From positions 1-64,000 of the forward strand of contig JAJDTB010000075.1 of the NCBI GenBank assembly GCA_022827345.1: DNA of 64,000 bases. Reading direction: 5' to 3'. The notes beneath the pieces are model-generated. The model did no database searches. It was not told where the DNA came from and worked only from the letters and a program-made list of their open reading frames with translations. The position numbers and the translations under genes are program-made. Origin of the DNA: Gemmatimonadota bacterium. GTDB taxonomy: Bacteria; Gemmatimonadota; Gemmatimonadetes; Longimicrobiales; Gaopeijiaceae. Below, one piece after another: positions 59,215 to 64,000 of the stretch (positions within the stretch are counted from its first letter, which is position 1; each line of letters begins with the position of its first letter).

Positions 59215-62004
59215 ATGCGCCTCTCGTGGAACGAAGTGCGGGTCCGCGCAGCGTCCTTCGCCAAGGCGTGGCGGGACGCGGCCTACGAGAAGGGCGAGAC
59301 GCAGAGCTTCTACAACGACTTCTTCGAGGTGTTCGATGTTCGCCGCCGATCCGTCGCCCGCTACGAGGAGCATGTCGCCAAGCTGGACAACCGCTCGGGT
59401 TATATCGACCTGTTCTGGCCGGGCGTCCTGATCGTGGAGCAGAAGAGCGCCGGGCGCGACCTCCGCAAGGCGTATGGACAGGCCGGGGAGTATTTCGACG
59501 CGCTCCCCGAACGCGACCGCCCGCGCTACATCTTGGTGAGCGATTTCCAGACCTTCGAGCTTCACGATCTGGACGAGCGGGAGACCGTCACCTTCCCTCT
59601 CTCGGACCTGCCCGGCCACGTCGAGGAGTTCGGCTTCATACTCGGCGTCCAGCGCCGGACGTTTCGAGACCAAGATCCCGTCAACATCGAGGCGGCCGAA
59701 CTCGTCGGGCGGCTGCACGACGCGCTCGACGCTGCGGGCTACCGAGGCCACGATCTGGAGAGGTTCCTCGTGCGGATCGTGTTCTGCTTGTTCGCCGACG
59801 ACACCGGCATCTTCGAGCCGCGCGACATCCTTTTCGACTTCCTTGAATCCCGTACCCGGAAGGACGGCATCGATCTCGGGGCGCTGTTGGCTCAGCTCTT
59901 TCAGGTCCTCAATACGCCGGAAGATAACCGCACGGCGACGCTGGACCACGACTTGGCCCGATTCCCCTACGTCAACGGTGACTTGTTCGAGGAGCCGCTG
60001 CGCATCCCCGCTTTCGACGCATCCATGCGCGAAAAGCTCCTCGACGCTTGTCGGTTCGACTGGTCCAACATCTCGCCGGCCATCTTCGGCGCGCTGTTCC
60101 AGTCGGTTATGGACCCGGTCGAGCGCCGCAAGCAGGGCGCGCACTACACGACCGAGAAGAACATCCTGAAGGTGATCGAACCGCTGTTTCTGGACGACCT
60201 TCGGGCCGAGTTCCAGCGCCTGAAGGGCCGCAAGGACAGCCGCCGCCGTGCCGACCTGCGCCGGTTTCAGGAGAAGCTAGGGCGGATGACCTTCTTCGAC
60301 CCCGCGTGCGGATGCGGGAACTTCCTCATCATCGCCTACCGCGAGTTGCGGGAGCTTGAGATCGAGGTCCTGACGGAGCTTCACCGGAAGCGCGCGGCAC
60401 GGCAGTTGGACGCGCTGGCGTCCGAGCTGTCCCTCGTCGACGTGGACCAGTTCCACGGAATCGAGATCGGCGAGTTTCCCGTCCGCATTGCGGAGACGGC
60501 GATGTGGATGATGGACCACATCATGAACAACCGGCTGAGCTTGGAGTTCGGCCAGACCTACACTCGGATTCCGCTTGAGACTTCGCCGCACATCGCGCAC
60601 GGGGATGCCCTTGAGATGGATTGGGCCGATCTCTTGCCCTCCGAGAAGTGCTCCTTCGTGTTCGGCAATCCGCCCTTCGGGGGCGCGAAGTTCCAGAGCA
60701 GGGCCCAGCGCGCCCAAGTGCGAAGGATCGCGGACCTTGGTGGGACGGGTGGCACGCTCGACTACGTGACGGCTTGGTTCATTAAGGCCGGAGAGTACGT
60801 CAATGGGGCCACCGGAGTTCGGATCGGCTTCGTGGCCACCAATTCGATCACGCAAGGTGAGCAGGTCGCTCAGCTATGGCCGATCCTCTTCGACCGCTGC
60901 GAGCTGGAGATCGCGTTCGCCCACCGGACCTTTGCGTGGGGATCGGACGCGCGCGGCAAGGCTCATGTGCATGTGGTTATCGTCGGACTGGATGGCCGCG
61001 AGGCGGTGCCCGGCAGGAAGCGCCTGTTCAGCTATCCCGACATCAACGGCGACCCGGTGGAAACCCGGCACGCCGTGCTCTCACCCTATCTGTTCGACGC
61101 CGGAGGGCTCGCCGACCCGTATCTGACCGTGCGGGAGGAGAGTAGCCCTATCAATGGCATGAAGAAGTTGATCACCGGAACCCAGCCTCTTGAGAAGGGG
61201 AACCTGACATTCTCAAGTGCGGCGAAGTCCTCGTTTCTGGCTCGGGAACCCAAAGCCGAGCCGTATTTCCGACCCTTTCCCGGCGCTCGTGAGTTCATCC
61301 AAGGTAGGGACCGCTGGATCCTCCATACGACCGACATTCCGCCCCAGGAACTGCGCGATCTGCCCTTGGTTCGCGAAAGGCTTCGCGCCGTGCGGACGTT
61401 CCGGGCGAAGAGCAAGCGCACCACGACCAAGCGGCTGGCGGATTTCCCCCGGTCCTATGGGGTAACCGTAGTGCCGGAAGCACCGTTCCTGATCATCCCT
61501 CAGGTCAGCTCCGAGCGACGCGAGTACGTGCCCATCGGGTGGCTGGAACCCCCGGTCATACCCAGCGAGAAGCTACGAATCCTCCCTGACGCGACTCTCG
61601 GCGAATTCGCACTGCTCACCTCCGCCATGCACATGGCATGGGTGCGGACCGTGACGGGGCGAATGAAGAGCGATTACATGTACTCGGTCGGCGTCGTCTA
61701 CAACACCTTTCCGACGCCCACCCGCTGGGGCAACAACGACAAGGTTGAGTCTCTGGCGCAGGCCGTCCTCGACGCTCGTGCGGCTTATCCCCACGCGACG
61801 CTGGCGGACCTCTACCACCCGGATCTGATGCCGCCCAGCCTGCGGCGCGCCCATCGGGCGCTCGACCGCGCCGTGGACCGGCTCTATCGTGGCAGAGGGT
61901 TCGCCTCAGAACGCGAACGCGCCGAGCACCTGTTCATGCTCTACGAGAAGATGCGCGCTCCCTTGGGCATCGGGATCAAGAAGCGAAAGCGCCGCCGCCG
62001 ATAG
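59215..62004 (+). CDS. Single-chain type IIL (MmeI-like) restriction-modification enzyme
   Basis: 929 residues, close to MmeI (about 919). N-terminal nuclease: D65-x9-E75-Q-K77 in YIDLFWPGVLIVEQKS, the exact D-x9-E-x-K spacing of MmeI. A helical connector follows (about 165-330, with GAHYTTEKNILKVIEPLF). The gamma-type adenine methyltransferase has motif I DPACGCGNF starting at 362 and NPPF at 485-488. Target-recognition domain about 620-830; C-terminal helical tail ends in KKRKRRRR. Such enzymes cut about 20 bases from their site and protect host DNA by methylating one strand. Recognition sequence not determinable here. All catalytic motifs are intact. Confidence 0.93.
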   Translation: MRLSWNEVRVRAASFAKAWRDAAYEKGETQSFYNDFFEVFDVRRRSVARYEEHVAKLDNRSGYIDLFWPGVLIVEQKSAGRDLRKAYGQAGEYFDALPERDRPRYILVSDFQTFELHDLDERETVTFPLSDLPGHVEEFGFILGVQRRTFRDQDPVNIEAAELVGRLHDALDAAGYRGHDLERFLVRIVFCLFADDTGIFEPRDILFDFLESRTRKDGIDLGALLAQLFQVLNTPEDNRTATLDHDLARFPYVNGDLFEEPLRIPAFDASMREKLLDACRFDWSNISPAIFGALFQSVMDPVERRKQGAHYTTEKNILKVIEPLFLDDLRAEFQRLKGRKDSRRRADLRRFQEKLGRMTFFDPACGCGNFLIIAYRELRELEIEVLTELHRKRAARQLDALASELSLVDVDQFHGIEIGEFPVRIAETAMWMMDHIMNNRLSLEFGQTYTRIPLETSPHIAHGDALEMDWADLLPSEKCSFVFGNPPFGGAKFQSRAQRAQVRRIADLGGTGGTLDYVTAWFIKAGEYVNGATGVRIGFVATNSITQGEQVAQLWPILFDRCELEIAFAHRTFAWGSDARGKAHVHVVIVGLDGREAVPGRKRLFSYPDINGDPVETRHAVLSPYLFDAGGLADPYLTVREESSPINGMKKLITGTQPLEKGNLTFSSAAKSSFLAREPKAEPYFRPFPGAREFIQGRDRWILHTTDIPPQELRDLPLVRERLRAVRTFRAKSKRTTTKRLADFPRSYGVTVVPEAPFLIIPQVSSERREYVPIGWLEPPVIPSEKLRILPDATLGEFALLTSAMHMAWVRTVTGRMKSDYMYSVGVVYNTFPTPTRWGNNDKVESLAQAVLDARAAYPHATLADLYHPDLMPPSLRRAHRALDRAVDRLYRGRGFASERERAEHLFMLYEKMRAPLGIGIKKRKRRRR

Positions 62005-62287: not shown

Positions 62288-62571
62288 TGTGAAAACGACG
62301 CGGGGGGGCGATTCACAATTCGGCGCTCCACCGATTCACAGGGCAGCGAACGCGCAACCGGCGCGGTTGCAACGTCTTGCGGCCAAGCGGCTCGGTCGTC
62401 CGGTGCCGGACGGGCCGCTCGGGCCGTGGCGGGAGCGACCCGCCTCGCCGAGGGCTCGGTGCGGCGTAGGGCCGAGCGTGTTTTCACACCCTCGCCCCCC
62501 CGCCTCGACGGGTCGCTCCCGCACCAGAGATCCCTCCGGGAAGGGATCGAGCGCCGCTTCGAGGCGGCGGA
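62288..62571 (-). repeat. Structured repeat element, copy A (hexamer TGTGAA)
   Basis: Module 62431-62520 is bounded by the exact 11-bp inverted repeat GGGAGCGACCC / GGGTCGCTCCC and contains two hairpins (small CCGA/TCGG near 62448; long one around GTG-TTTT-CAC at 62478-62487 with TTCACA at 62483). Three hexamers lie to the left at 62288 (TGTGAA), 62312 and 62335 (TTCACA), spaced 24 and 23 bp; the nearest is 91 bp from the module. To the right a hairpin-forming 22-bp sequence (62550-62571) is shared exactly with copy C. Length 284 bp. Confidence 0.75.
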
Positions 62572-62929
62572 GCAAGCGGTCGCCGTCCACCCGTCTGTCG
62601 GAGCGGCGGGCGTCCCCGTTGCCACGCGATTCGCCGGACGAGCCTTCGTGGTCCCACGCGACCGGGTGGCCCATTCGCCCTTGCTCTACGTTGACGCCGA
62701 CGTTTCGGTTTCGCACCCGAACCACCGGCTCGGCTTCGACGAACCGGTGGACGTGTCGCCGCCCACCGGGGCGAGCCTGACGTTCGGACGGCGCTACGGC
62801 GCTCGCTTCATCTTCCACCTCGGGGAGGCGTCCGGGGGCACCCTGACGCTCTTCCAGATGGGCGGGCACGTCTCGCTCTGAGGCCTCCACGAACGGCCCG
62901 GAGGCGAGTCGGCGCACGGACGCAACCAA

Positions 62930-63211
62930 CCGCGCAAACGCGGTGCCGTCGGCCTTCCCGCAAGGGACTGTTGGACCGGGAGCGACCCCGGGGCGGGGGT
63001 TGGGATGGCCGTGCACATCCCAACCGTCGCCGTGCCGTACCAGGCACCCCGAAGGGACGGGTCGCTCCCGGCCACGGCCGAGGAGCGCGGATCGGCATCG
63101 GCGCTCCGCTGACCGTGGCGCAACCGCAAGCGCACCAGCAATATGTGGAATTGGCGTTGTGCACACGGGAACGCGTTTTTCGTGCACATCGACCCCGATG
63201 TCGGATGTGCA
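62930..63211 (+). repeat. Structured repeat element, copy B, inverted (hexamer TGCACA)
   Basis: Module 62978-63069 with the same 11-bp ends, in the opposite orientation to copy A: the long hairpin (9-bp arms GGTTGGGAT/ATCCCAACC, 62998-63025, TGCACA at 63012) comes first and the small one (GTGCC/GGCAC, 63032-63047) second. The hexamer cluster is now on the right: TGTGCACA at 63158, TGCACA at 63183, TGTGCA at 63206, the first 89 bp from the module. A flanking hairpin CCGCG-CAAA-CGCGG (62930-62943) sits on the left. Length 282 bp. Confidence 0.75.
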
Positions 63212-63545
63212 CCTCTGGATCGGCACCGGGAGCGTCCAAAGCGGCTCCTAGTCACGTCTTCGCCGCCCCCGGCAGATCGGGCCGCCGATCCAGACCGCCG
63301 GAGTGGCGGTCTCCATCAAGCGAACGGGGTGGATTCCGTCGCGGTCGGGAGCGAGGCTGTATTCGTGCGCGCCTGTGCCTTCCTCTCCCTGATCTTGCAC
63401 CAAGACATCAAATCGAGTGGATCGCGCTGGCCCGTCTCCACGACAACATCTGGTCGCGGGCGTAGTGGACGGATTCCCCGGGTTGTCACCACGAGGAGGC
63501 CCGCAGCGCCGTCCGCGTACTCGCGGGAGTGCTTTTCCTATGGTT

Positions 63546-63869
63546 TGCGCACCTCCGGCAACGTGGGTTAGACCCGTATACGCCTGCGCAAACGACGTGG
63601 GGTGCCGATGCGCACTCCGGCGCTCCGGACGTGCGCACCGACGGAACGGCGGAAGCTGCTGCGCCCCGAGGGCTTGGGCCTCGCGGTCCCAGGCGGTCGG
63701 GGCCGCAGCGCTCGTTCGGGCTGGGCTGGGAGCGACCCCACAGTCCGAGGGACTGCTGCGGGTTCGGGGCCGTGCGCGTTTGCGCACCCCCGGCCCCTCC
63801 CCCTCGGGTCGCTCCCAGACCAACGATCCTGCCGGAAGGCTTGGTTCAGCGCCGCTTCGAGGCGGCGGA
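63546..63869 (-). repeat. Structured repeat element, copy C (hexamer TGCGCA)
   Basis: Module 63728-63816, 11-bp ends identical to the other copies. Small hairpin CAGTCC-GAG-GGACTG (63741-63755), then the long hairpin GGGGCC-GTGCGC-GTTT-GCGCAC...GGCCCC (63766-63797). Hexamers TGCGCA at 63585, 63609 and 63632 repeat the 24 and 23 bp spacing of copy A, with the nearest 91 bp from the module; a fourth lies at 63546. The right-hand 22-bp sequence (63848-63869) is identical to that of copy A. Same orientation as A. Core length 285 bp (63585-63869). Confidence 0.75.
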
Positions 63870-63934
63870 CCACGTCGGGCGGCCTGCTTGTGGCGCGCGG
63901 GATGTCGTTCGGGGGTCCGGGGGGTCTCCCCCGG

Positions 63935-63967
63935 CCAGAGGTTTTTGTAAAACAAAAACACATCTGG
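63935..63967. repeat. AT-rich hairpin between repeat copies
   Basis: CCAGA ... TCTGG encloses GTTTTTGT-AAA-ACAAAAAC, a perfect 8-bp AT-rich stem with a 3-base loop. It stands out in GC-rich DNA and lies between copy C and the start of the probable next copy. It could stop transcription on either strand. Confidence 0.6.
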
Positions 63968-63979
63968 CTCCTCCGAAAC

Positions 63980-64000
63980 CCCGCAAACGCGGGGCCGAGC
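63980..64000 (+). repeat. Probable start of a fourth structured repeat copy (cut by window end)
   Basis: CCCCGC-AAAC-GCGGGG followed by GCCGAGC resembles the flanking hairpin that opens copy B (62930-62943, CCGCG-CAAA-CGCGG then TGCCG). If it is a copy, it has the orientation of B and an 11-bp end should follow about 35 bases beyond the window. Confidence 0.35.

Follow-up and report, generated by a model that had tools for sequence, protein, structure and literature searches.

What kind of sequence is repeated three times, in alternating orientation, at the end of the window (the whole 64 kb stretch of DNA analysed here), and what does it work with? The preliminary description, made from the letters alone, took the copies for a free-standing, structured and RNA-like element lying behind a gene for an MmeI-like enzyme. 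The copies and their parts, in which w1 to w4 are occurrences of a short word and P1 and P3 are paired regions, are located as follows.

62288-62571, + strand: element copy A, word TTCACA (covariance-model match C40:62421-62547, 124 bits)
62288-62317, + strand: copy A flanking hairpin H1, w1 TGTGAAAAC ... w2 GATTCACA (sequence; 121-element alignment)
62333-62340, + strand: copy A third word w3 GATTCACA, a direct repeat of w2 (sequence; alignment)
62430-62442, + strand: copy A P1 5' arm CGGGAGCGACCCG
62480-62488, + strand: copy A w4 GTTTTCACA, at the tip of the long hairpin P3
62509-62521, + strand: copy A P1 3' arm CGGGTCGCTCCCG; proposed junction/nick zone immediately 3'
62531-62544, + strand: copy A terminal hairpin TCCC..GGGA, then AGG
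62753-62882, + strand: remnant of a cargo gene for an outer-membrane protein, of which the last ~38 codons are left, between A and B, which converge (tblastn match in L045)
62931-63215, - strand: element copy B, word TGTGCA, convergent to A (sequence; covariance model)
63182-63212, - strand: copy B flanking hairpin H1 (sequence)
62978-63069, - strand: copy B P1-closed three-way-junction domain; w4 GTGCACAT at 63011-63018
63585-63872, + strand: element copy C, word TGCGCA (sequence, blastn, covariance model)
63585-63614, + strand: copy C flanking hairpin H1 TGCGCAAAC...GATGCGCA (sequence)
63728-63816, + strand: copy C P1-closed domain; w4 GTTTGCGCA at 63778-63786

All three copies were present as reported, each with the exact 11-bp arms GGGAGCGACCC / GGGTCGCTCCC (62431-62441/62510-62520 in A, 62978-62988/63059-63069 in B and 63728-63738/63806-63816 in C), and in the 64 kb window these arms occurred nowhere else. 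An 11-mer hairpin was thus seen three times in the window tail, a recurrence that was never reproduced by 200 order-1 Markov shuffles, in none of which one was seen even twice. The copies are indeed one kind of unit with a preserved architecture, but the statement that most of the sequence inside them differs was too strong, as they can be aligned over ~270 bp at a mean column identity of ~64%.

The end of the window is a decayed mobile unit: A and B surround the outer-membrane-protein remnant, of which a full-length homologue is present in L035, and copy C is followed, just beyond base 64000 (in L045), by a tyrosine integrase gene belonging to the same family. Positions 59215-62004 (+) encode a 929-aa protein with the methyltransferase-type motifs DPACGCGNF and NPPFGG, an MmeI-like type IIG enzyme. 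This gene is a chance neighbour of the elements and its position an accident of the locus; elsewhere the steady neighbour is the gene for a protein that we call fam1.

Anatomy and distribution of the element

The anatomy was drawn from 25 copies in the window's own genome, 23 of which were aligned, and from 121 unique elements across many genomes. In order, the element comprises the hairpin H1, w3, variable stems, P1 enclosing the small hairpin P2 and the long hairpin P3 as a three-way junction, a linker of 10-15 nt (CCAnCnn) and, at the 3' end, a terminal hairpin (TCCN-nnnn-NGGA) with AGG behind it. This terminal hairpin closes the element and was absent from the layout first given. H1 consists of w1 (the word inverted), CGAC..GGGG..GTCG and w2. 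The cluster of hexamers previously reported does exist, but it is really one specific word (TTCACA, TGCGCA, TGCACA, TGTGCA or CGGACA), present three times near the 5' end, as w1, w2 and w3, and again as w4 at the tip of P3. Pairing in P1 is maintained through compensatory, two-sided changes, the outermost pair being CG in 73, TA in 27 and GC in 13. The variable parts of w2 and w4 were the same in 31 of 45 clusters (80% identity), where 8 were expected and the maximum across 5000 shuffles was 18. An RNA guide formed by the apical-loop word and pairing with w1 was rejected as the main principle: w2, w3 and w4, all direct repeats, agree more closely with one another than with the inverted w1, and w1 is mismatched in several lineages (L040, L090, L031).

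A blastn search with copy A alone recovered more copies genome-wide, the best of them 71-85% identical, and a 127-position covariance model found 30 distinct copies in the window's genome, 4 of these outside its training set. Further copies were found in related genomes; among 59 relatives they were restricted to this genus and one related genus, and of 31 genera only two, the same in both cases, had fam1 or the element. The named loci come from metagenome-assembled genomes (MAGs) of Gemmatimonadota, including its member Candidatus Palauibacter, and more sparsely from MAGs labelled Gammaproteobacteria, Acidobacteria and Pseudomonadales; the copies in MAGs labelled as other phyla may stem from binning errors. 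As two single-contig genomes (G001 and G021) also carry the element, it is not an assembly artefact. The order to which Candidatus Palauibacter belongs has been reported from sponges and marine sediments (PMC10469786). In this marine and sponge-associated lineage a genome can hold up to about 30 copies of the element. In a scan against Rfam the element gave nothing at the gathering threshold and the whole window yielded a tRNA alone, in line with the earlier failure to match a known RNA family. No description of the element was found in the open papers searched, and the viral contigs searched contained no relative of fam1. The element is real and undescribed in the libraries and papers searched; it is very unlikely to be a new RNA class.

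The fam1 protein and the words of the element

The recurring neighbour, which the preliminary description had missed, encodes a winged-helix (wHTH) protein of ~310 aa, fam1, and its gene precedes the element. Fifty fam1 genes, four of which are partial, were checked in the window's genome and its relatives, and all but the one in L099 are followed at a distance of 32-64 bp by an element on the same strand (49 of 50). In a set of 80 named loci, which has genomes in common with the first set, 79 of 82 fam1 genes had an element (79 of the 80 with room for one), and two of the three lacking it run off the contig.

Neither Pfam nor NCBIfam contains a match to fam1. By VIA structure comparison its wHTH fold matched MepR with a Z of 9.4, that is, it is MarR-like. 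The best VIA matches of the C-domain were mostly PD-(D/E)XK nucleases, with Z 6.8 at most and Foldseek E > 0.3, and the fam1 alignment shows no conserved acid/lysine catalytic pattern (PV/PL/PI stands in place of PD, and FVYADPG in the strand); on these structure models the second domain is probably a silent nuclease fold. No clear HUH relaxase appeared among the listed fold matches. A MOBC relaxase was also considered for fam1 and rejected by sequence: Pfam, NCBIfam, a PDB sequence search and hhalign against MobC (probability 0.9%) were all negative, and PF13814 (Replic_Relax) matched neither fam1 in the Pfam scans nor anything in the window's own genome. The MobC comparison used intact homologues from other plasmids, the CloDF13 reference NC_002119 being without a single open MobC frame. 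A 546-aa PF13814 protein does occur in a related genome (L202:492-2129); its N-terminal half looks, by eye, like a degenerate second wHTH/PD-(D/E)XK copy.

The words follow the fam1 clades. When 1065 pairs of fam1 proteins at 62-85% identity were compared (674 with different words and 391 with the same word), residues 48, 50 and 46 ranked first, second and third of the 310 columns in separating the two classes, and residue 48 differed in 92% of the different-word pairs but in 0% of the same-word pairs. In a structure model these residues fall within or at the start of the wHTH helix 48-60. Helix HPEQ goes with TTCACA, HHER with TGCGCA, HHEK or HHEQ with TGCACA, (D/S)R(F/W)K with TGTGCA, and HPEK or HHRS with CGGACA; further pairs are HHDR with TGCG and HRGT with GGTG. 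Where w2 had changed and w4 was the same, the helix had changed in 36 of 39 pairs, whereas where w4 had changed and w2 was the same it had changed in 13 of 76, the pairs in both counts sharing ancestry (25 clusters at 85% identity). Helix changes thus track w2 and much less w4, which suggests that fam1 reads w2/w3, and on this coevolution w2 and w3 are most likely its words. The fit between the words and the recognition helix suggests that they would be read as double-stranded DNA. Binding by fam1 does not by itself account for the apical word, since w4 and w2 disagree in about 28% of elements. Recognition helices and the DNA words matched to them form a series of natural variants in this family, in which it becomes testable how a relaxosome factor might gain a new specificity and whether small passengers keep to one helper.

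Mobile units, the folded strand and the joint

In a complete unit the order is AlpA-like, virB2, virB4, virB9-like, virB10, virB5-like, virB6, virB8, fam1, the element, T4CP, virB11, ardC, a gene for a 300-aa protein and an integrase gene, the virB5 and virB9 labels having been assigned by position and by eye. Pfam matches in the units were to VirB2, VirB4, VirB10, VirB6, VirB8, T4CP, VirB11, ArdC and integrase, and the ORFs scanned in conjugative units included no relaxase recognised by Pfam. The order virB6-virB8-fam1-element-T4CP-virB11 is found in many genomes, so that the element has the placement in a conjugation module that an oriT has, and together with fam1 it is a search handle for conjugative elements lacking a recognisable relaxase. 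The 300-aa protein (L029:12490-13389 and homologues) has a wHTH and a PDA..NVEV motif (YPDAQIEYEDADGRTGRVNVEV) that is collinear with PDALAEL..VAFEVER of MobC in a weak BLASTP match (E 0.08); hhalign did not recover a relation to MobC, and the protein had no Pfam or NCBIfam match. Judged by the motif, it is a candidate MOBC-like relaxase.

Small units consist of fam1 and an element, cargo, a second element facing the first, and an integrase gene outside the pair, or of the same parts without fam1. In all 20 convergent pairs the two elements carried different words, against a mean of 16 after shuffling (P=0.01). The alternating orientation described previously reflects such pairs, in which two elements with different words converge. 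The integrase gave a general Phage_integrase match, and its scores against the XerA/integron NCBIfam models were far below the cut-off. Genome G000 has 28 matches to CAGATCGTGCAGTCCATCG, a leader directly before the start codon that is common to ~25 closely related tyrosine integrases. An empty-site comparison in the complete genome G021 placed the right boundary of a unit about 100 bp past the integrase gene; the left flank is not conserved in relatives, and the right boundary alone was placed.

Departures from pairing in P1, counted by cluster on the fam1-sense strand, comprised 19 A.C and 3 G.U, and on the complement A.C reads as G.T. The P1 domain was also more stable on the fam1-complementary strand in 58 of 61 clusters, by a mean of 4.8 kcal/mol, although the 61 clusters have common ancestry and these strand statistics are not fully independent. 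When whole elements were folded the strand difference was not significant (P=0.17), so that the preference is local to P1. A sense RNA is made less likely by this preference, which points instead to DNA in single-stranded form or to an antisense RNA. The notion of a free-standing, RNA-like element does not hold in the face of this and of the constant presence of fam1 beside the element at other loci.

Sharp breakpoints were taken from pairs of elements having one near-identical and one diverged part. Fourteen of 26, from pairs that are not independent, fell at reference positions 227-247, which correspond to the P1 3' arm and the linker. In L181 compared with L177, and in L039 compared with L101, the elements are identical through P1 and then unrelated, each with its own terminal hairpin. 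The P1 3' edge therefore marks a preferred joint; other breakpoints occur, and such a joint is not in itself proof of a nick.

Possible functions of the element

We give an even chance to the view that the element is an oriT-like site of integrative conjugative or mobilizable elements and fam1 the specificity factor that picks its own copy. Here fam1 would use residues 46, 48 and 50, as their coevolution with the word suggests, to bind w2/w3, the direct repeats, in double-stranded DNA, and once bound would recruit or position a DNA-processing enzyme at the P1 domain. The fam1-complementary strand, when single-stranded, would fold into the P1 three-way junction beside the small hairpin, and nicking or rejoining might then take place in the ~10-15 nt between P1 and the terminal hairpin, where the sequence switches. 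The nicking enzyme could be the 300-aa protein or the tyrosine integrase, and units with an element and an integrase but without transfer genes would be mobilizable passengers bearing the site. Binding, nicking, transfer and the identity of the enzyme are thus the parts of the oriT-like reading that we infer. In its favour stand the computed results: the pairing of fam1 with the element, the coevolution of helix and word, the place among the transfer genes, the strand preference of P1, the joint and the fold of fam1. Two convergent elements per unit make an unusual layout for an oriT, which weighs against it. Integrative and mobilizable elements that use the oriT of a helper are small and integrase-bearing and carry only that helper's transfer site, whereas the small units found here usually hold two convergent sites of different specificity.

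Our best reading, by analogy, is that fam1 and the element would work like TcpK and the oriT of the Clostridium perfringens plasmid pCW3. TcpK is a wHTH protein encoded just upstream of oriT that binds its repeats and gives specificity (PMC6137059), and the pCW3 relaxase TcpM is listed as tyrosine-recombinase-like (PMC12857230). The likeness rests on layout, a wHTH gene lying directly upstream of a repeat-bearing site in both. The pCW3 oriT is ~150 bp long with direct and inverted repeats, whereas the element is ~270 bp, has a conserved P1 three-way junction and belongs to another phylum and other hosts; fam1, at 310 aa, has an added PD-(D/E)XK-like domain, and its specificity maps to the recognition helix, whereas TcpK reads DNA in an unusual mode. 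The MOBC relaxases (pAD1 TraX and CloDF13 MobC; PF13814) also combine a wHTH with a PD-(D/E)XK-type fold, to which that of fam1 is a weak match. TraX, which has an N-terminal wHTH, binds to direct repeats that lie 70-120 bp from nic (PMC12857230), and in this class the direct repeats are bound away from nic and the mobC gene lies beside the T4CP gene, just as fam1 and the element adjoin T4CP. Against a common identity stand the negative PF13814 and hhalign comparisons of fam1 and its unconserved catalytic residues; by its PDA..NVEV motif the 300-aa protein looks nearer to MobC than fam1 does.

In conjugative units the element probably lies inside a transcript, and hence a regulatory leader is possible. 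The element would then be a cis-regulatory region, with fam1 an autoregulator or repressor acting on w1-w4 and P1 a leader or attenuator of the T4CP operon. In most conjugative units the element ends in GGGAAGG ~8-11 nt before the T4CP start codon, a Shine-Dalgarno sequence, and the wHTH of fam1 is MarR-like, as this role would lead one to expect. We nonetheless consider it unlikely: the terminal hairpin and AAGG are retained where no gene follows the element, the P1 fold favours the complementary strand, and the element lies downstream of fam1, away from the fam1 promoter.

The attC sites of integrons are imperfect inverted repeats with a variable structured centre, whose folded bottom strand is favoured and which have a tyrosine recombinase nearby. 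The element shares all of these properties, its own fold being favoured on the complement strand, and it could accordingly be a folded single-strand site of recombination or cassette exchange, attC-like in mechanism and used with the tyrosine integrase, with convergent copies of different specificity bracketing cargo. The different words of all 20 convergent pairs, the variability of the cargo between kept P1 edges and the presence of an integrase gene 230-400 bp outside an element in many units speak for this. We find it doubtful, because the constant partner is the wHTH protein and not the integrase, the ~25 integrase leaders and 30 elements are not all paired, complete conjugative units have a single element and a single integrase on opposite sides, and the one placed right boundary lies ~100 bp beyond the integrase and not at an element. 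Unlike attC, moreover, the element was not seen in an integron array, and the cargo lies between convergent copies. Rather improbable, in our estimation, is a new two-part address system in which fam1, as a catalytically silent, nuclease-derived wHTH protein, and the folded element would have a readable protein-DNA code in common, with face-to-face sites of different code bounding exchangeable cargo; if it were true, cassettes could be inserted, swapped or transferred by orthogonal units that do not interfere with one another.

The strong fold, the near-obligatory position 3' of a protein gene and the word in the apical loop would suit a non-coding RNA that derives from the fam1 transcript and has a guide-like or structural role, but such an RNA is very improbable given the rarity of G.U relative to A.C and the lower stability of P1 on the sense strand, as well as the match of the words to the fam1 helix, which suggests reading as double-stranded DNA. 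No more credible is the explanation that the site (iterons and hairpins) acts as a replication origin or partition site once the mobile unit is excised, fam1 being the initiator or centromere-binding protein: a wHTH that reads direct repeats would fit, and the distant wHTH matches include centromere-binding proteins, but fam1 and the element are placed before the T4CP gene, and no recurring replication or ParA-like gene was noticed beside the element in an unsystematic look.

Some loci depart from the usual arrangements. An IS110-like transposase insertion splits one copy of the element (L031:7128-8738), and the orphan elements of L106 and L105, whose own word is TGCGCA, are preceded, ~170 bp upstream, by an additional H1/w3 module whose word is TTCACA. 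In L157 and L175 two modules of fam1 and element stand tail to tail, with the elements facing each other, about 95 bp apart.
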